Source of the DNA: Desulfobacterales bacterium
GTDB lineage: Bacteria; Desulfobacterota; Desulfobacteria; Desulfobacterales; JANQIE01
NCBI GenBank assembly: GCA_028282295.1
Contig: JANQIE010000268.1
Location: 1-47,708, forward strand
Direction of reading: 5' to 3'
Length of the DNA: 47,708 nucleotides
Shown here: piece by piece, positions 36,745-45,439 of the stretch
How positions within the stretch are numbered: position 1 is the stretch's first letter
Layout: every line of letters begins with the position of its first letter
Translations under genes and position numbers: made by a program
Notes under the pieces: generated by a model
Database searches by the model: none
What the model saw: the letters and a program-made list of their open reading frames with translations, nothing else
What the model was told of the DNA's origin: nothing

Positions 36745-37125
36745 TCACCTGGTCACCCCGACGCAAGACGGACAGACACCGTATAAAAATATTTCGTGAT
36801 CTTCCACGACAAATCCATCGGGAGCCGCGTCCTCTTCCTTCAGGGCGCAGCCGGGAAGCTCAAAGGCACGGTTGCACTCACGGCAATGAAAGTGGTGGTG
36901 ATGTCCCTTTCCGGTGCGTTCGTACAAAGCTCCGAGAGATGGATGGAAGATCCGTTTCAACCACCCGTCATCGATAAGAAGCTTAAGATTCCTGTAGACC
37001 GTTGCCTGGTTGAGCGACTCCACGAGCTTGCGGCCGTAATTTAGAACCTCATCTACACCCAACGGTCTATCATGTTCCCTGAAGACCTGCTCTATGGCCA
37101 TTCTCTGTGTCGTGTTACGTCTCAA
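36745..37125 (-). CDS. zur: Fur-family metalloregulator, probable Zur (TTG start)
   Basis: 126 residues from TTG 37125. The winged-helix domain contains [17 protein letters not shown], the recognition-helix region of Fur proteins. The metal domain has [11 protein letters not shown] and GVCPSC, giving the structural CxxC pair and His ligands. AAGGAGG at 37134-37140 lies 8 bases before the TTG, whereas the upstream in-frame ATG at 37218 has no ribosome-binding site and only six bases to the operator palindrome. Zur is preferred over Fur or PerR because of the surrounding zinc-limitation genes (znuA, zinc-free dksA and rpmG). A Zn-loaded dimer would repress these. Confidence 0.8.
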
Positions 37126-37223
37126 GGTCTGAACCTCCTTTTTTGTAGAGTCTAAGTTTTTCCCACTGTTATTGCAAGTGTCTTCGCAATAAGCTTGACA
37201 TGCGTTGTCCTCAGACATATTGT

Positions 37224-37239
37224 TGCAAATGCATTTGCA
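37224..37239. promoter_or_regulatory. Probable Zur operator
   Basis: TGCAAATGCATTTGCA is a perfect 16-bp palindrome, flanked by T and T, in the divergent region between the Fur-family gene and the flavoprotein at 37406. It lies about 100 bases upstream of the proposed TTG start and could control both genes. Fur-family boxes are typically palindromes of this size. Confidence 0.65.
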
Positions 37240-37405: not shown

Positions 37406-38551
37406 ATGAAATCTAAAAAATCTTTTGACGTGATCGTGGTCGGCGCCGGCGCGGCCGGTGTTGGGGTTGGCATGGCGCTGAAACGCGTCGGTGTGGAATC
37501 GATGCTCCTTTTAGAGCGCGGGGCGGTGGGTGAGAGCTTTCGCCGCTGGCCGGAGGAGATGCGGTTTATAACACCGTCTTTTACAAGTAACGCGGTGGGG
37601 CTGGTAGACCTGAATGCCGTCCACCCTTCGACTTCGCCCGCATTTTCTCTGGAAGAAGAGCATCCCGGAGGCCGGCAATACGCCCAGTATCTTGACGCCG
37701 TGGTCCGCTACACCGATCTGCCTGTGCGAACGGGTGTCGATGTCCGATCGATAGCGCTCAAGAATAACGGGTTCTCGCTTGAGACGAACGGTGGTGCATA
37801 CAGCGCGCGCTTCGTCGTCTGGGCCGCCGGTGAATTCCAATACCCGCACAAGGGAGGCTTTACGGGAGCCGAACATTGCGTCCACAACACCAAGGTGGAC
37901 TCGTGGCGTTCCTGGAAAGGAGAATCGATTGCCGTCATCGGCGGTTACGAGAGCGGTATCGACGCCGCCTGGCATCTGAGTCGCGCCGGCAAATCGGTGG
38001 TGGTGATCGATCCGGCCGGCCCTTGGAAAAAGAGAGGTGAAAGCGATCCGAGCCTCGTCCTATCGCCTTACACGATGGCACGGTTTCGCCAGATGGAGGC
38101 GCAGCATCCCGAAGGGCTGGTCCGTTTCATCGCCGAAAAGGTGCAACGGGTCGATGCACTGAACGGCCAATTCATAATTCGGACCCAAACGCTCGACATC
38201 CCGACCGATTCGCGCCCCGTGCTGGCGACCGGCTTTAAGGGGAGCCTCACCTTGATCCGCGACCTGTTGGCCTGGGATTCGGCGGAGAATTTCCCGGTTC
38301 TGACACAAGCGGCCGATGAATCGACACGGACCCCCGGCCTGTTCATCTGCGGCCCCATGGTCCGCCACCGGACCGCAAACGGCATGGCGATTCTCTGCTT
38401 TATTTACAAATTCCGCATGCGCTTCGCATTGATAGCGGCGACGATCGCATCGCGCATGCAACTCGACACCTCGCCCCTGTCGGAATACGACGACACCAAC
38501 ATGGTGTTGCGGGATCTGGCGACTTGTTGCGGATCGGGATGTTCATGCTGA
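37406..38551 (+). CDS. FAD-dependent oxidoreductase with a CCGSGCSC tail
   Basis: 381 residues. Two dinucleotide-binding folds are visible: VIVVGAGAAGVGVG near residue 10 for FAD, and IAVIGGYESGIDAAWHL near residue 173, probably for NAD(P)H. No CxxC redox motif of thioredoxin reductase is present. The extreme C-terminus is CCGSGCSC (374-381), four cysteines in eight residues, which could bind metal or act as a redox tail. It is divergent from the Zur-like gene with the palindrome in between, and a group of zinc-related genes follows on the same strand. The substrate is unknown; flavin monooxygenase or metal-thiol reductase are both possible. Confidence 0.8.
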   Translation: MKSKKSFDVIVVGAGAAGVGVGMALKRVGVESMLLLERGAVGESFRRWPEEMRFITPSFTSNAVGLVDLNAVHPSTSPAFSLEEEHPGGRQYAQYLDAVVRYTDLPVRTGVDVRSIALKNNGFSLETNGGAYSARFVVWAAGEFQYPHKGGFTGAEHCVHNTKVDSWRSWKGESIAVIGGYESGIDAAWHLSRAGKSVVVIDPAGPWKKRGESDPSLVLSPYTMARFRQMEAQHPEGLVRFIAEKVQRVDALNGQFIIRTQTLDIPTDSRPVLATGFKGSLTLIRDLLAWDSAENFPVLTQAADESTRTPGLFICGPMVRHRTANGMAILCFIYKFRMRFALIAATIASRMQLDTSPLSEYDDTNMVLRDLATCCGSGCSC

Positions 38552-38641: not shown

Positions 38642-38851
38642 ATGGACGCATTTGCGACAAATCTTCTCAAAGACGTCAAGGTTTGCTTCCTGGCTACCAA
38701 ATGCACGGAATGCGGTAACAACGAAATTGAAGCCGACCAGGTGGAATACTGCATTGCCAGTGGCTTCGTGCGAATCGAGCAGAAGCAAACGAAAAAAATC
38801 TGGATCACCCACATCAGCAACGTGAGTCTCCAGTTCGAAGCGCCGTCCTGA
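38642..38851 (+). CDS. Small CxxC protein upstream of the FeoB-like transporter
   Basis: 69 residues from ATG 38642, with AAAGGAG well placed upstream. Cysteines occur at C15, C21 and C24 (KCTECGNN) and C36 (EYC), so a single zinc or thiol site is possible. Its stop lies 11 bases before the start of the FeoB-like gene, so the two are almost certainly co-translated. By position it resembles FeoA relative to FeoB, but it has no SH3-like FeoA pattern that I can see. It could be a metallochaperone or regulatory subunit for the transporter. Confidence 0.7.
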   Translation: MDAFATNLLKDVKVCFLATKCTECGNNEIEADQVEYCIASGFVRIEQKQTKKIWITHISNVSLQFEAPS

Positions 38852-38862
38852 CGGAGGTGAAG

Positions 38863-40512
38863 ATGGACTGTTCGGAAAGTCTTCCCAGGGTCCTGGTCAT
38901 CGGCAAGGAGAGCGTCGGCAAGTCGCAACTGGTTGCCTCGCTTACCGGCCGGTGGGCTGAAAGCTACAACTTTCCAGGTTCGACCATCGCTTGCGACTGC
39001 TATGCGGATAAGTTCTACAACTATATTGATTCGCCCGGTCTCCTGCAGCGTTCGGACAGCGATGCGTCCCGTGAAACCCTCGCGGCGCTTGCCGAAAACG
39101 ATAGGGTCCTGCTGGTGGTCAACGCGACCCATATCGATCAGGACCTGGAAGATCTTCTCGGATTGGTCGAAGACAAACACGGTGCTGTTGTTGTGACTTT
39201 CTGGGACAAGGTGGTCCGCATACCGGATGCCGGTGAACGCCTGGCGGAGTTGAGCCGACGGGCGGCCATTCCCATCATCCCCGTGGACGCCCGGCGGTTG
39301 TCCGAAACCCATCGCCAAGGCATCCGCCGGGCGGTGGGTGAAGGACGAAAATTTCCGCTGAGCCCCCTTTCCCAGCGGACCGGGTGGACGGTGGAACCTT
39401 CGCCGACACTGTTCGACAAACCGGTTATCGGGCAGGTTTTGGCACTGGTGCTGTTGACCCTGCCAGCTTGGTTCGCCGCCCAATACGCCAACGCCCTCGC
39501 CGACCGCCTTTTCGAGCCGCTGAGCGCGCTTATCGCGCCGTTGCTCGGGACGGTCGAAGGGTGGCCCGGCCCGCTCGCCGCGATATTCGGCGGTGACTAC
39601 GGCTTTGTGGCGATGCTGCCCTTTCTACTGCTCTATTCCGTGCCGACGGTCCTCTTCTTTGCCGTCATCATCGCGCTGCTCAAATCTTCCGGCCTGGTCG
39701 ACCGAATGACGGTGTCGCTCCATCCGCTGATGCGCCCCTTCGGCCTGGCCGGGCGAGATCTGGTTCGCGTCATGATGGGATTCGGCTGCAACGTCCCGGC
39801 GGTGGTCAACACCCGCGCCTGTTCGTCCTGCTCCCGAGCCAATTGTGTCACGGCCATCGGCATCGGCGCGGCGTGTTCCTATCAATTGCCGGCAACCGTC
39901 AGTGTCATGGCAGCGGCTGGCATGACGTATCTGGTCGTGCCATACCTTCTGTTTCTGGCAGTTACCACGCTCGCGCTTTTGGCGCTGTCCGCTTCCCGCA
40001 CTTCCCGTGATCCCCAAAACCATTTGTTGATTGAGGGACGCGCATTTTTACAGTGGCCCCAATGGAGCGCAATTCGGCGCGAGGCGGTTCACGTGGCGAA
40101 ACAGTTCTTCTCGGTGGCGCTGCCGGTCTTTTTTCTGATTTGCGTCCTGGCTGCGATTCTGGCCCGGTCCGGAGTGCTGGACGCCTGCAGCCGGCTGATG
40201 GGACCGTTGATGTCACTTTTCAATCTGCCGCCGGAAGCAGCCCTGGCCGTGGTTCTGGGCTCCATCCGCAAAGACGGATTGGCCATCGGACTTTTAAACA
40301 TGGAGGCCGGCACCCTCAAGGTACCTCTTGAAAGCCCGGTGCAGGTACTCACAGCGGTAACACTGGCGGGCATTTTCCTGCCGTGTCTGGTGACGGTGCT
40401 TGCCATCGTCCGCGAACTCGGTTGGCTGTTCGCGCTTCGCATGATGGCCCGGCAGTCAACCGCAGCCGTTCTCAGCTGTTTGGTGCTGGCTTGGGGCGGC
40501 GCACTTTTTTAG
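38863..40512 (+). CDS. FeoB-like GTPase-permease (candidate zinc or metal transporter)
   Basis: 549 residues from ATG 38863 (GGAGG five bases upstream; a GTG at 38857 overlaps this site). The N-terminal G domain has G1 GKESVGKS (14-21), the PGST switch (38-41), and G3 DSPG (56-59), but at G4 it reads TFWDK (112-116) instead of N-x-x-D. A membrane part follows with Gate-type segments, including GFGCNVPAVVNTRACSSCSR, which matches the FeoB GFGCNVPA signature but adds C320, C323, C328 and C338. FeoB is usually about 700-780 residues; this one is shorter. It is preceded by the CxxC protein and followed 46 bases later by znuA. Confidence 0.85.
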   Translation: MDCSESLPRVLVIGKESVGKSQLVASLTGRWAESYNFPGSTIACDCYADKFYNYIDSPGLLQRSDSDASRETLAALAENDRVLLVVNATHIDQDLEDLLGLVEDKHGAVVVTFWDKVVRIPDAGERLAELSRRAAIPIIPVDARRLSETHRQGIRRAVGEGRKFPLSPLSQRTGWTVEPSPTLFDKPVIGQVLALVLLTLPAWFAAQYANALADRLFEPLSALIAPLLGTVEGWPGPLAAIFGGDYGFVAMLPFLLLYSVPTVLFFAVIIALLKSSGLVDRMTVSLHPLMRPFGLAGRDLVRVMMGFGCNVPAVVNTRACSSCSRANCVTAIGIGAACSYQLPATVSVMAAAGMTYLVVPYLLFLAVTTLALLALSASRTSRDPQNHLLIEGRAFLQWPQWSAIRREAVHVAKQFFSVALPVFFLICVLAAILARSGVLDACSRLMGPLMSLFNLPPEAALAVVLGSIRKDGLAIGLLNMEAGTLKVPLESPVQVLTAVTLAGIFLPCLVTVLAIVRELGWLFALRMMARQSTAAVLSCLVLAWGGALF

Positions 40513-40558
40513 AAAAACGCACCGGAAAAATCTATCGAATGAGAAAGGAAAGCTCAAA

Positions 40559-41527
40559 ATGTATCGATTAATCAAGCTGGTTTTGATTACATTTGTTTTA
40601 TTACCTATATTTATGGGAAATAGTGCCGCAGCGGACAAGCTTCCCGTCTTTGTCAGCATCGTACCGCAGAAATACTTCGTGCAACAAATCGGCAAAAATC
40701 TGGTAGAAGTACAGGCCATGGTCCAGCCTGGGGCCAGCCCCGCCACCTATGAGCCTAAACCCAAACAGATGGCCGATCTTTCAAAGTCAAAAATCTATTT
40801 TGCCATCGGCGTCCCGTTCGAAAACGCTTGGCTTGAAAAAATAGCCGACACCAACCCCAATATGCGGTTGGTCCATACCGACCACGGCATCAAAAAAATC
40901 GCCATGACAGCCCATCACCACCATCATGATGAAAAAGCGGAAAAACATCATGAAGACGAACACCACGAAGCCGATCATGATCATGAAAAAAAGGAACACC
41001 ATGACGAGGCGGCGCATGATGAAGACCATCACGAGCATGCCGGGCTTGATCCTCACATCTGGCTGTCACCGCAACTGGTAAAAATCCAGGCCCGCACAAT
41101 TCTGGCCGCACTGCAGAAGGCCGACCCGGCGCATAGCAGCACTTATAAAACCAACTTCCAGGATTTTGTAGCAAGGATAGACCAACTGGACGCCGATCTG
41201 AAAAAGACCTTCGCAGGAAAAAAGGATCTGCAATTCATGGTATTTCATCCAGCCTGGGGATATTTAGCGCATGCCTATGGGCTGAAGCAGGTACCTATTG
41301 AGATTGAAGGCAAGGACCCCAAACCGGCTCAGTTGAAAAAGCTGATCCAGCATGCCAGGGAAAACGGGATCAAGGTGGTTTTCGTCCAACCCCAGTTTTC
41401 GACCAAAAGTGCCAAACTCGTAGCCCGGGAGATCGGCGGCAAGGTTACTTTTGCCGATCCCTTGGCCTCAGACTGGATGGCCAACTTGCGTCATGTGGCC
41501 GACAATTTCGAGGCGGCCTTGAAGTAG
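40559..41527 (+). CDS. znuA: ZnuA-type zinc solute-binding protein with a His-rich loop
   Basis: 322 residues with a cleavable signal peptide (hydrophobic LITFVLLPIFMGNSAAA, cleavage near residue 24), so a periplasmic protein. The family fold is clear: GASPATYEPKPKQMADLS, then a very His/Glu/Asp-rich loop (about 118-160), then LDPHIWLSP, FHPAWGYLAHAYG and FADPLASDW. The first zinc ligand of E. coli ZnuA (His in GASPHxY) is Ala here. The His-rich loop is characteristic of zinc-type binding proteins. AAAGGAAAG is the ribosome-binding site. No znuB or znuC lies in the window. Confidence 0.92.
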   Translation: MYRLIKLVLITFVLLPIFMGNSAAADKLPVFVSIVPQKYFVQQIGKNLVEVQAMVQPGASPATYEPKPKQMADLSKSKIYFAIGVPFENAWLEKIADTNPNMRLVHTDHGIKKIAMTAHHHHHDEKAEKHHEDEHHEADHDHEKKEHHDEAAHDEDHHEHAGLDPHIWLSPQLVKIQARTILAALQKADPAHSSTYKTNFQDFVARIDQLDADLKKTFAGKKDLQFMVFHPAWGYLAHAYGLKQVPIEIEGKDPKPAQLKKLIQHARENGIKVVFVQPQFSTKSAKLVAREIGGKVTFADPLASDWMANLRHVADNFEAALK

Positions 41528-41554: not shown

Positions 41555-42037
41555 ATGAATATCGACTGCAATTTGAAAGGGCCGGGACTGGCTCAGCAGG
41601 TTCCGGTGCAATGGGTGTCAAATATGAAAGCCAAATCCGAAACCAACTATCGGCCGTCAGAAAACGAACCGTACATGAACGAAAGACAACGGCAGTATTT
41701 TCGCGATAAACTTATGAGGTGGCGTGAAGACCTTATAGCAGAATCGCGGGAAACAGTAGCCAAAATGGTCCAAGGAAGCCAATGGTATTCTGATCCAACC
41801 GACCGCGCCGCGAAGGAAGCGGACACAATTTTGGAACTAAGGACACGAGACCGCCATCGTAAACTCATCGGAAAAATAGAGGGCGCTCTCAATAGGATCG
41901 AGGAAGGCACCTATGGCTATTGTGAGGTGACGGGCGAACCCATTGGCGTAAAGCGCTTAGATGCCCGACCGATAGCGACTTTATCTCTGGAGGCGCAACA
42001 GGCTCACGAGGCGACAGAAAGACGCAGGGGAAATTAG
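41555..42037 (+). CDS. dksA: DksA/TraR-family protein lacking the zinc finger (DksA2-like)
   Basis: 160 residues as drawn; starts at 41624 or 41675 are possible because none has a good ribosome-binding site. DksA binds RNA polymerase and works with ppGpp to alter promoter choice. The coiled-coil tip motif DPTDRA is intact (80-85). In the zinc-finger region the usual CxxC...CxxC becomes CEVT (Cys123 kept, Thr126) and SLEA (Ser144, Ala147), so three of four zinc ligands are missing. This matches the Zn-independent DksA2 type known to replace DksA under zinc limitation in other proteobacteria. Confidence 0.93.
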   Translation: MNIDCNLKGPGLAQQVPVQWVSNMKAKSETNYRPSENEPYMNERQRQYFRDKLMRWREDLIAESRETVAKMVQGSQWYSDPTDRAAKEADTILELRTRDRHRKLIGKIEGALNRIEEGTYGYCEVTGEPIGVKRLDARPIATLSLEAQQAHEATERRRGN

Positions 42038-42240
42038 GCGTTGGGCAAACTCAGACACTCTATTTGTCCTGTCGACCTTAAGAAGAACGATGGATATGGA
42101 CCATGACGGAGCGCGCTATATTCCAGGGCGTTCACATGCTCATTGAGGGGAAGTTCGATCGCGCCTCGAAAAAGCAAGGGCCACCGGAACAATCCGGTCT
42201 TTATCAGTCGAAACCTCAAGCGCGATTTTATCAATAATGG

Positions 42241-42266
42241 GGTTCAAGGTGTGTCTGGCTTGAACC
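42241..42266. promoter_or_regulatory. Inverted repeat in the rpmG leader
   Basis: GGTTCAAG (42241-42248) and CTTGAACC (42259-42266) are perfect complements around a 10-base centre, 28 bases before rpmG. It could be an operator or an mRNA hairpin; no T-tract follows. Confidence 0.4.
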
Positions 42267-42561: not shown

Positions 42562-43986
42562 ATGAGAACCTATGATTTGATCGCCATCGGCACCGGTTCG
42601 GCCATGGTACTGGTGGAAGCTTACCGGCAGATGCATCCCGGTGCCAAAATCGCCGTGATCGACAAGGACCCTCCGGGCGGAATCTGTCTGACCAAAGGGT
42701 GCGTGCCCACCAAAATGCTGCTGTATCCGGCCGAGGTCGTTCGCACTATTGAAGAAGCACAAGGACTCGGCATCCGCACGGATAGAATTGTCCCGGAATT
42801 TGAAAGCATCATGAAGCGCGTGCGCAGCAGCATCGGAACCGAAATCCAACGGATCGACTCCGGTCTCAAAAAGGCCAAGGACATCGATTACTACAGGGCA
42901 CCGGCTGAGTTCACGGCACCATATACCCTGAAAATTGGTGGCAAGGAGCGAATCGAATCCCGGCTGATCATGTTGTGCACCGGATCCAGACCCCATCTGC
43001 CGGATATAGAAGGGCTCGATCGCGTCGCGTATTACACTAGCGATACCATCCTTGACATCACCACCCTGCCGAAATCGGTTGCCATCATCGGCGGCGGCTA
43101 CATTGCAGCGGAATACGGCCATTTTTTTGCGGCCATGGGCGCCGAGGTCACCCTCATCGGCCGAAACCCGCAATTTCTTCCGGAAGAAGAGCCTGAAGTC
43201 AGCCGGCTGGCGGCAGCAAAGATGTCGCCCCACATGGAAATCCTCACCGATCACGAGGCCCTGCGACTGTCGGAGGATCCATCCGGGCTAAAGCAGGTGG
43301 AGGTGCTGCACCGAAGTTCCAACCGCCGTATTTCGGTGATAGCCGAGCAGGTGCTGATTGCTACCGGCCGTTCACCCAATACTGATCTGCTGCAGCCCGC
43401 ACTGTCCGGCATCGAGGTCGACGAGGCCGGCTGGATCGTCACCGATGAGTACCTGAAGACCAGCCAGCCGAATATCTGGGCCTTCGGGGATGCCAACGGC
43501 AAGCACCTCTTCAAGCACGCCGCCAACCATGAAGCCCAGATCGTTTATTACAACGCCCTGCTGAAGGAACGGGTCAAGGTCAATTACCATGCCGTACCCC
43601 ATGCCGTGTTCACCTGGCCGGAGATTGCCTCGGTGGGAATGAAAGAGGCCGATGCGGTCCGGCGCTTTGGTCCCGATAATGTGCTGATCGGGTTTCAGCG
43701 ATTTGAGCACACCACCAAAGGGGATGCGATGGGACTGAGCGGATATTTTGCCAAGGTCGTTGCAGGCGATGGCAACAAGATCCTCGGTGCCCACGTCATC
43801 GGCCCGCAGGCATCCGTACTGATACAAGAGGTAGTGAATTTGATGTACACCCCCCAGCGGGTGATCGATCCCATCGTTGTCGGCATGCACATTCATCCGT
43901 CTTTGAGCGAAGTTATTGAACGGGCGTTTTTAGGCCTGATGCCCCAGCCGCACTACCGGCAGCTTTTCGAAGACGGCCGGCTCTGA
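42562..43986 (+). CDS. Pyridine nucleotide-disulfide oxidoreductase (dihydrolipoamide dehydrogenase/mercuric reductase-like)
   Basis: 474 residues, a class I flavin disulfide reductase. The FAD motif is GTGSAMVL (10-17) and the redox pair lies in GGICLTKGCVPTK (CxxxxC near 44-49). The NAD(P) motif is IIGGGYIAAEYGHFF, and the dimer-interface HPSLSEVIERAF (His-Pro and Glu) is near the C-terminus. All catalytic residues of the lipoamide dehydrogenase family are present. No E2 or E3 complex genes lie nearby, so a thiol-disulfide role in the zinc island is possible. No mercuric HMA domain is present. Confidence 0.9.
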   Translation: MRTYDLIAIGTGSAMVLVEAYRQMHPGAKIAVIDKDPPGGICLTKGCVPTKMLLYPAEVVRTIEEAQGLGIRTDRIVPEFESIMKRVRSSIGTEIQRIDSGLKKAKDIDYYRAPAEFTAPYTLKIGGKERIESRLIMLCTGSRPHLPDIEGLDRVAYYTSDTILDITTLPKSVAIIGGGYIAAEYGHFFAAMGAEVTLIGRNPQFLPEEEPEVSRLAAAKMSPHMEILTDHEALRLSEDPSGLKQVEVLHRSSNRRISVIAEQVLIATGRSPNTDLLQPALSGIEVDEAGWIVTDEYLKTSQPNIWAFGDANGKHLFKHAANHEAQIVYYNALLKERVKVNYHAVPHAVFTWPEIASVGMKEADAVRRFGPDNVLIGFQRFEHTTKGDAMGLSGYFAKVVAGDGNKILGAHVIGPQASVLIQEVVNLMYTPQRVIDPIVVGMHIHPSLSEVIERAFLGLMPQPHYRQLFEDGRL

Positions 43987-44156: not shown

Positions 44157-44242
44157 AGAGGGTAAATCGCTGATATGTGGTACTCTATCAGATGCAACGC
44201 CGGGGTTCATCGAGGCAACCATCCAATTTTGGAGAAAATCCT

Positions 44243-45439
44243 ATGATGCTCCAAATGCTGATCATCGGCGGTGGTATACACGGTGTTCATCTTGCGCATT
44301 GTCTATTGCAGCAGTCGCCGCTGAGGCACGATGACATCCGAATTTTAGACCCTCATGATGAATTGCTGCATGAATGGTGGCGGTGCGTGCGAAACTGCGG
44401 TATGCAGTATTTGCGGTCGCCTTCGGTGCACCATATCGACATCAATCCGTTTTCCCTGGACAAGTACGCTGCTTTGGCAGCAAACAGGCAGGACGCCAAT
44501 TTCATACCACCCAAAAGTAGGCCATCTGTGGAATTGTTTCATCGTCATTGCCGAATGGTGATCGATGACCATCGGCTGGAGTCTCTGCAAATCAGGGGGC
44601 GTGCTTTGGAAATGCTAAACGGGAATGGCCATGTAAGCGTCGTGACCGCAAAGGAAACGATCCTGGCCCGGTTTGTGCTGTTTGCACTGGGGATGGGTGA
44701 ACAGCCACTCTGGCCGCCTTGGGCGGCCCGCCTCAGAGAACAGGGGGTACTGGTGAATCATGTGTTCGATCCCGGTTTCCGTCTGAAAGACATACAGGAC
44801 GGCGGCCCGATTGCGGTGATCGGTGCCGGGATCAGCGGTGGGCAACTGGCACTGCATCTGGCAAAAAAAGGATTTGAAAGCGTCCTGCTGATCTCAAAAA
44901 GGGCCATCCAGGTAAGCGACTTCGATTTTGACCCGGGCTGGCTGGGTCCAAAGTATTTGGGCCGGTTCCACCGTCAATCGAATGATCAGCGCCGGCAGCA
45001 GATAATGGCTGCCAGAGCCAAAGGCAGTGTTCCCCGGGACATGAAGCTTGCGTTGGATAAAGCAGCGGCAATGAATCAACTCACGTGCATTGCCGACGAT
45101 ATCACCGACGCGAAATGCCAAAACGGCGGCGCCTTACTGATTGGACGGCACGGCCAATACGAGTGTCAAAAAATTGTTCTGGCCACCGGTTTTACGGAAA
45201 ACCGCCCGGGAAACGGGTTTATCAACCAGGCAATAAAAGAATTCGATTTAAAAGCAGCGGCTTGTGGATTTCCAGTGATCGGGCCGTCCCTTCAGTGGCA
45301 TGAGCGGATTTTCGTTACCGGCCCTCTTTCAGAACTTCAGGTTGGCCCTTCAGCGAGAAACATCGCCGGTGCAAGGCATTCGGGCAGAAGAATCACAGCC
45401 GCTTTCAACAAGGAGTCGATTTCCCGCAAGGTGATTTAG
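44243..45439 (+). CDS. FAD/NAD(P)-binding oxidoreductase (second flavoprotein of the island)
   Basis: 398 residues from ATG 44243 (TTGGAGAAAA upstream; the ATG at 44177 would add 22 non-conserved residues). The first Rossmann motif is LIIGGGIHGVHLAHCLL at the N-terminus, and a second is IAVIGAGISGGQLALHLAKKG near 195. A VLATGFTENRPG segment near residue 335 is the usual ATG motif. The fold recalls N-hydroxylating monooxygenases or CzcO-like flavoproteins. There is no C-terminal Cys tail as in the 37406 protein. Substrate unknown. Confidence 0.8.
   Translation: MMLQMLIIGGGIHGVHLAHCLLQQSPLRHDDIRILDPHDELLHEWWRCVRNCGMQYLRSPSVHHIDINPFSLDKYAALAANRQDANFIPPKSRPSVELFHRHCRMVIDDHRLESLQIRGRALEMLNGNGHVSVVTAKETILARFVLFALGMGEQPLWPPWAARLREQGVLVNHVFDPGFRLKDIQDGGPIAVIGAGISGGQLALHLAKKGFESVLLISKRAIQVSDFDFDPGWLGPKYLGRFHRQSNDQRRQQIMAARAKGSVPRDMKLALDKAAAMNQLTCIADDITDAKCQNGGALLIGRHGQYECQKIVLATGFTENRPGNGFINQAIKEFDLKAAACGFPVIGPSLQWHERIFVTGPLSELQVGPSARNIAGARHSGRRITAAFNKESISRKVI

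Follow-up and report, generated by a model that had tools for sequence, protein, structure and literature searches.

Characterised relatives of FeoB transport iron or manganese. To our knowledge, the zinc importers described in prokaryotes are ABC systems (Znu, Adc and Azt), ZIP proteins (ZupT) and metallophore systems. Zur-regulated islands that carry COG0523 genes have been described by Haas et al. (2009; PMC2770081), who also list the Zur cluster of Klebsiella plasmid pLVPK. A zinc-starvation regulon is typically recognised by zinc-free paralogues of DksA and of ribosomal proteins (PMC2770081; PMC6103462). The loci described here have COG0523, DksA, FolE2, HisI, Cam, CysRS, ThrRS and QueD in common with those islands, and they differ in that a FeoB-like GTPase-permease (FeoBL) and a flavoprotein form an unremarked pair among the members; FeoB is absent from the main text of that paper. 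Furthermore, a search of the open-access literature, a body that leaves subscription journals largely outside, returned no report tying a FeoB relative to Zur or to the zinc response.

A FeoB-like gene within a zinc-starvation island

The window analysed is a stretch of 47,708 nucleotides from a Desulfobacterales bacterium (contig JANQIE010000268.1) whose genome is 5.46 Mb with a completeness rating of 100%. A preliminary description of this DNA proposed that a small CxxC protein, a FeoB-like channel and a periplasmic ZnuA together form a binding-protein-dependent, GTPase-gated metal importer. Re-reading of the open reading frames confirmed the order of these three genes and the gaps between them, which are 11 bases from the 69-residue frame to FeoBL and 46 bases from FeoBL to znuA. 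The FeoBL start is the ATG at 38863, with an alternative GTG at 38857. The features of the island are as follows.

36745-37218, minus strand: candidate Zur of the Fur family, transcribed divergently to the operon (PF01475, 61.5 bits)
37224-37239, no strand: candidate Zur box in the divergent promoter, a perfect 16-bp palindrome, TGCAAATGCATTTGCA
37406-38551, plus strand: flavoprotein (Pyr_redox_3, S. aureus 3d1c / CzcO-like) with a C-terminal CCxxxCxC tail
38642-38851, plus strand: 69-residue member of a small, as yet unnamed protein family (ATN..VEYC..SGYV..ITHISNV), no Pfam match
38863-40512, plus strand: FeoBL, 549 residues, candidate Zn(II) importer (GTPase/FeoB_N and two Gate stretches)
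40559-41527, plus strand: third znuA copy, an orphan, for a zinc-binding protein of the periplasm with a His-rich loop (PF01297, 235 bits)
41555-42037, plus strand: DksA paralogue with only one of the four zinc-finger cysteines left
42118-42263, plus strand: 3'-end remnant of a COG0523 (CobW) gene, recognised by DNA identity to locus L030
42295-42456, plus strand: zinc-free paralogue of ribosomal protein L33

The DksA encoded in the window reads CEVT...LSLEA, and the other DksA of the genome (contig C61) keeps CxxC...CxxC. Likewise, the L33 of the window has no CxxC and the genome's other L33 (contig C289) has two. These zinc-free forms of DksA and L33 thus indicate that the window holds a zinc-starvation island. 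Adjoining the island at 42562-43986 is a gene for a flavoprotein of the dihydrolipoamide dehydrogenase type (NF004947, score above the cut-off). A second FAD protein is encoded at 44177-45439, and homologues with approximately 29-33% identity occur near FeoBL in haloarchaeal islands (loci L034, L048, L049, L056, L059, L069, L077 and L078). Given these haloarchaeal neighbours, the second FAD protein may also be part of the zinc response.

Scanning genome contigs of 84,980 species yielded 43 FeoBL loci, of which 42 were used (L030-L071). A plasmid search returned 531 records with FeoBL relatives, and seven of these were read in their annotated context. The comparison set therefore consists of 49 relatives' loci, many of them on short contigs, from cyanobacteria, haloarchaea, planctomycetes, verrucomicrobia, Bacillota and enterobacterial plasmids. 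The plasmid relatives include 499 from Klebsiella and 20 from E. coli, and their annotations go no further than "nucleoside recognition domain-containing protein" or "ferrous iron transporter B". On the one of these plasmids that was read (L080), FeoBL lies within a zinc-starvation island that has two Fur-family genes.

Sampling 394 other genomes of the phylum gave no FeoBL at E<=1e-60. The island was therefore probably acquired by horizontal transfer, and there is no close vertical comparison for it. Its closest relative, L030 from a Desulfobacula metagenome-assembled genome, is 88% identical and has the order FeoBL-DksA-COG0523-znuA-znuC-znuB, on a contig that ends inside the FeoBL gene. The 146-bp stretch at 42118-42263 of the window is 77% identical in DNA sequence to the 3' end of the COG0523 gene that this relative carries intact (L030 2925-4361), and such a remnant implies that the island has been rearranged in the present genome.

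The permease and its flavoprotein partner

Like FeoB (TIGR00437, PF02421/PF07670), FeoBL has an N-terminal FeoB-type G domain and a CNT-like membrane core. The G domain matches FeoB_N and MMR_HSR1 and its GTPase motifs are conserved, with G4 reading TFWD rather than NxxD. The core matches PF07670 in two stretches and keeps the GFGCNVPA motif. An AlphaFold model (mean pLDDT 84.7) finds its best structural match in NFeoB for the G domain (Z 19.7), and the membrane core matches the CNT fold (Z 17.7). The system is a known fold in a new variant and not a new fold.

Several features set FeoBL apart from canonical FeoB. The preliminary description had suggested a phylogeny of this FeoB branch, and a quick tree with long branches now places FeoBL as a clade of its own outside canonical FeoB with a support of 100. 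FeoBL scores 121 bits against the FeoB equivalog model TIGR00437, below its cut-off of 315.65. The helical GDI domain is absent: only about 40 residues separate G5 from the first transmembrane helix, a stretch clearly shorter than that of canonical FeoB, and no such domain is seen in the AlphaFold model. Five cysteines are invariant in FeoBL (C309, C320, C323, C338 and C508). Three of them, C309, C338 and C508, have conserved equivalents in FeoB, whereas the extra CxxC after GFGCN (C320xxC323) is invariant in all aligned FeoBL members and absent from canonical FeoB.

The partner set of the preliminary description omitted the one constant partner, which is the flavoprotein gene immediately 5' of the three genes (37406-38551). 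A flavoprotein gene is present in 44 of the 49 relatives' loci and lies directly upstream of FeoBL in 37 of them; three of the five loci without it start inside or at the FeoBL gene. All full-length flavoproteins (33/33) end in a cysteine-rich C-terminal tail, in which C374, C375, C379 and C381 are invariant across a 23-member alignment. This CCxxxCxC tail is predicted to be mobile. The flavoprotein of the window is similar over its full length to S. aureus 3d1c, a putative flavin-containing monooxygenase (E 1.8e-64) for which the consulted sources list no function, and 3d1c also carries the tail. It differs from flavoproteins of the CzcO/YpdA/ArsO type in that YpdA and ArsO, the nearest NCBIfam models, match it far below their cut-offs.

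The small CxxC protein, in contrast, is unsupported as a defining part of the system. Only the window copy has the CxxC, which is lacking in all four homologues from relatives' loci (L032 3898-4122, L047 4556-4750, L064 9692-9934 and L067 3023-3217). We also rejected the 69-residue protein as a FeoA/FeoC-like adaptor, since the CxxC is unconserved and Pfam gives no match. Its small family (VEYC..SGYV..ITHISNV) has members close to the FeoBL gene in archaea, planctomycetes and cyanobacteria.

Zinc-starvation markers and Zur-type boxes

Gene neighbourhoods were scored for COG0523, HisI, gamma-carbonic anhydrase, FolE2, DksA, S14, L33, ThrRS, CysRS, QueD, ZnuA and ZnuB, most of which appear among the Zur-regulated genes of Haas et al. 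(PMC2770081). At least one of these markers is present in 33 of the 49 relatives' loci, although many contigs are short. None was found in the 20 loci of canonical FeoB used as controls (12-19.5 kb each), a comparison somewhat favourable to FeoBL because the marker queries were drawn from some of the FeoBL loci and the controls all come from a single order, that of the window. In these control loci a Fur-family gene is present in 12 of 20.

In several haloarchaea, the gene between those for the flavoprotein and FeoBL encodes an S14 in which only two of the four zinc-binding cysteines remain. The pair is found among COG0523, rpsN and rpmG in Paenibacillus, and among folE2, dksA, cysS, zigA and others in Pantoea and Klebsiella. 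We consider the link of FeoBL loci to zinc starvation well supported, and FeoBL very probably belongs to zinc rather than iron physiology. Its context is one of zinc starvation and not of Fur and FeoA, as for FeoB; no FeoA was seen beside FeoBL in the window by Pfam. Gene context, clade and equivalog score together led us to reject FeoBL as an ordinary iron FeoB.

Three different Zur-type motifs precede the operon, each proper to its own phylum, and shuffled-locus controls gave almost no such boxes. In cyanobacteria, TGATAATNATTATCA lies approximately 47 bp before the flavoprotein gene with zero or one mismatch in 9 of 14 loci. We take this box to be that of Zur rather than Fur, an assignment helped by its occurrence in these loci ahead of znuA and close to hisI. 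Paenibacillus has the box TCGTAATTATTACGA ahead of COG0523-rpsN-flavoprotein-FeoBL, an exact match to the Gram-positive Zur consensus TCGTAATNATTACGA (PMC545781). The E. coli Zur motif TRWNAYRWTATAWYRTNWCA (PMC6103462) is matched 19/20 just before the pair in Pantoea and, more weakly, 18/20 in Klebsiella.

In the window, the only candidate box is the palindrome TGCAAATGCATTTGCA, which matches no known Zur motif. It lies 6 bp from the start codon of the Fur-family gene, and 167 bp separate it from the flavoprotein gene downstream. The Fur-family regulator itself matches all NCBIfam subfamilies far below their cut-offs, and its position makes it a candidate Zur. Elsewhere in the genome there is no convincing second copy of the palindrome. 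Deriving a genome-wide regulon from it was tried and abandoned: the sole near copy (contig C196) falls within a coding frame, and among the two-mismatch copies inspected none is upstream of a recognisable zinc gene.

The orphan ZnuA and the proposed importer

ZnuABC resembles the present system in belonging to the zinc-starvation regulon and in that the window encodes an orphan ZnuA of its kind. The difference is that FeoBL is neither an ABC permease nor an ATPase. The preliminary description held that ZnuB and ZnuC are missing. This is correct for the window, where no ZnuB (PF00950) is encoded, but not for the cell, which has three ZnuA and two ZnuB proteins, the latter on contigs C121 and C196. 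Both contigs carry complete sets, znuA-znuC-znuB-Fur on C121 and znuA-znuC-znuB on C196. A znuBC pair lacking its znuA was not found in the genome, each of the two sets having its own.

Among solved structures, the ZnuA of the window is nearest to Synechocystis ZnuA (1pq4). Where that protein has PHTYEP, the window ZnuA (40559-41527) and its paralogue on C121 (L009 7253-8152) have PATYEP, so that one expected histidine metal ligand is absent from both. The two paralogues are 58% identical, which makes the window protein a surplus binding protein for which the cell offers an obvious ABC partner. On this similarity, the window ZnuA more likely serves the ZnuBC of the C121 operon than FeoBL.

That ZnuA instead passes zinc to FeoBL, in a binding-protein-dependent and GTPase-gated importer, would suit their adjacency in one apparent transcription unit of this genome, the His-rich loop of ZnuA and the fact that both genuine znuBC sets already have a znuA. 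We nevertheless consider it very improbable. ZnuA adjoins FeoBL in none of the 49 relatives' loci, and the interval between FeoBL and DksA in the 88%-identical L030 contains nothing like ZnuA. These observations rule out a conserved ZnuA-FeoB pair and leave the proposed ZnuA dependence unsupported. ZnuA does occur in six of the 49 loci, at 2.5-8.4 kb from FeoBL, with ZnuC present in all six and ZnuB in five. Haloarchaea, which have no outer membrane, also have no ZnuA beside FeoBL, and the orphan is a paralogue of an ABC-linked ZnuA. It therefore looks like a local extra and not a partner of FeoBL. Another reading takes FeoBL and the flavoprotein as a redox or sensing module, for thiol repair or the release of zinc from thiolates, with no metal import. 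In keeping with such a role, FeoBL is constantly accompanied by a flavoprotein that resembles disulfide reductases (nearest models YpdA and ArsO) and carries the CCxxxCxC tail, and the soluble domain of FeoBL is short, without the FeoB helical domain. However, the FeoB-type core, the Gate domains and the CNT fold are kept and the GTPase motifs are conserved, as in an active transporter, and we judge this reading quite improbable. Even so, Zur-repressed genes include non-transporters, which is a caution on any importer reading.

A further caution concerns the metal. FeoBL relatives carry iron and enzymes of the zinc-starvation response may need iron or manganese, so that another metal could be what is imported: zinc starvation would induce FeoBL to import Fe(II), Mn(II) or Co(II) for zinc-sparing enzymes (gamma-carbonic anhydrase, FolE2, HisI and others). 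The iron or manganese transport of characterised FeoB relatives speaks for this, and such enzymes are neighbours of FeoBL. Furthermore, Haas et al. proposed that the gamma-carbonic anhydrase of zinc islands uses iron (PMC2770081). The invariant extra CxxC of FeoBL, in contrast, favours a thiophilic metal, and several loci have zinc-free ribosomal proteins and COG0523 only, with no alternative-metal enzyme. We regard import of another metal as unlikely, and zinc is on balance the probable substrate.

We therefore favour, at a probability of roughly 0.6, the reading that FeoBL serves as the permease by which the cell takes up zinc when starved of it. On this view it would be a GTPase-gated importer of Zn(II), under Zur control and working with a Cys-tailed flavoprotein. 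This reading is based on family identity, the conserved pairing, the zinc-starvation context, the candidate Zur boxes and the conserved cysteines. It retains the GTPase-gated metal importer of the preliminary description, which is still the best reading and has gained a zinc context, and drops the ZnuA dependence and the small CxxC protein. When zinc is low, a Zur-type repressor would leave the operon and allow its expression. FeoBL would then reside in the inner membrane, where its G domain would hydrolyse GTP and its CNT-like core would move Zn(II) inward via a cysteine-rich path formed by C309, C320, C323, C338 and C508. The co-expressed flavoprotein, on the cytoplasmic side, may use its mobile CCxxxCxC tail to take zinc, to keep thiols reduced, or both. 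The adjacent ZnuA would be a recruited duplicate, its most likely effect being to feed more zinc to the ZnuBC transporter encoded elsewhere. We infer four elements of this sequence-based scheme: zinc as the substrate, its inward movement, what the flavoprotein does and which transporter ZnuA works with.

We see an even chance that these loci represent a new class of zinc importer, in which a Zur-switched, GTPase-gated FeoB relative passes Zn(II) to a Cys-tailed flavoprotein and which has spread horizontally through Bacteria and Archaea, including Klebsiella plasmids. If this is true, a GTPase-gated zinc importer would be new among prokaryotic importers, and the FeoB fold would have a second metal. 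The two extra cysteines of FeoBL would offer a natural contrast for the disputed metal path and energy source of FeoB. A function would also be provided for a gene pair that is now annotated in many genomes as "nucleoside recognition domain protein" and "NAD(P)/FAD-dependent oxidoreductase", and whose permease has relatives in 531 plasmid records alone.
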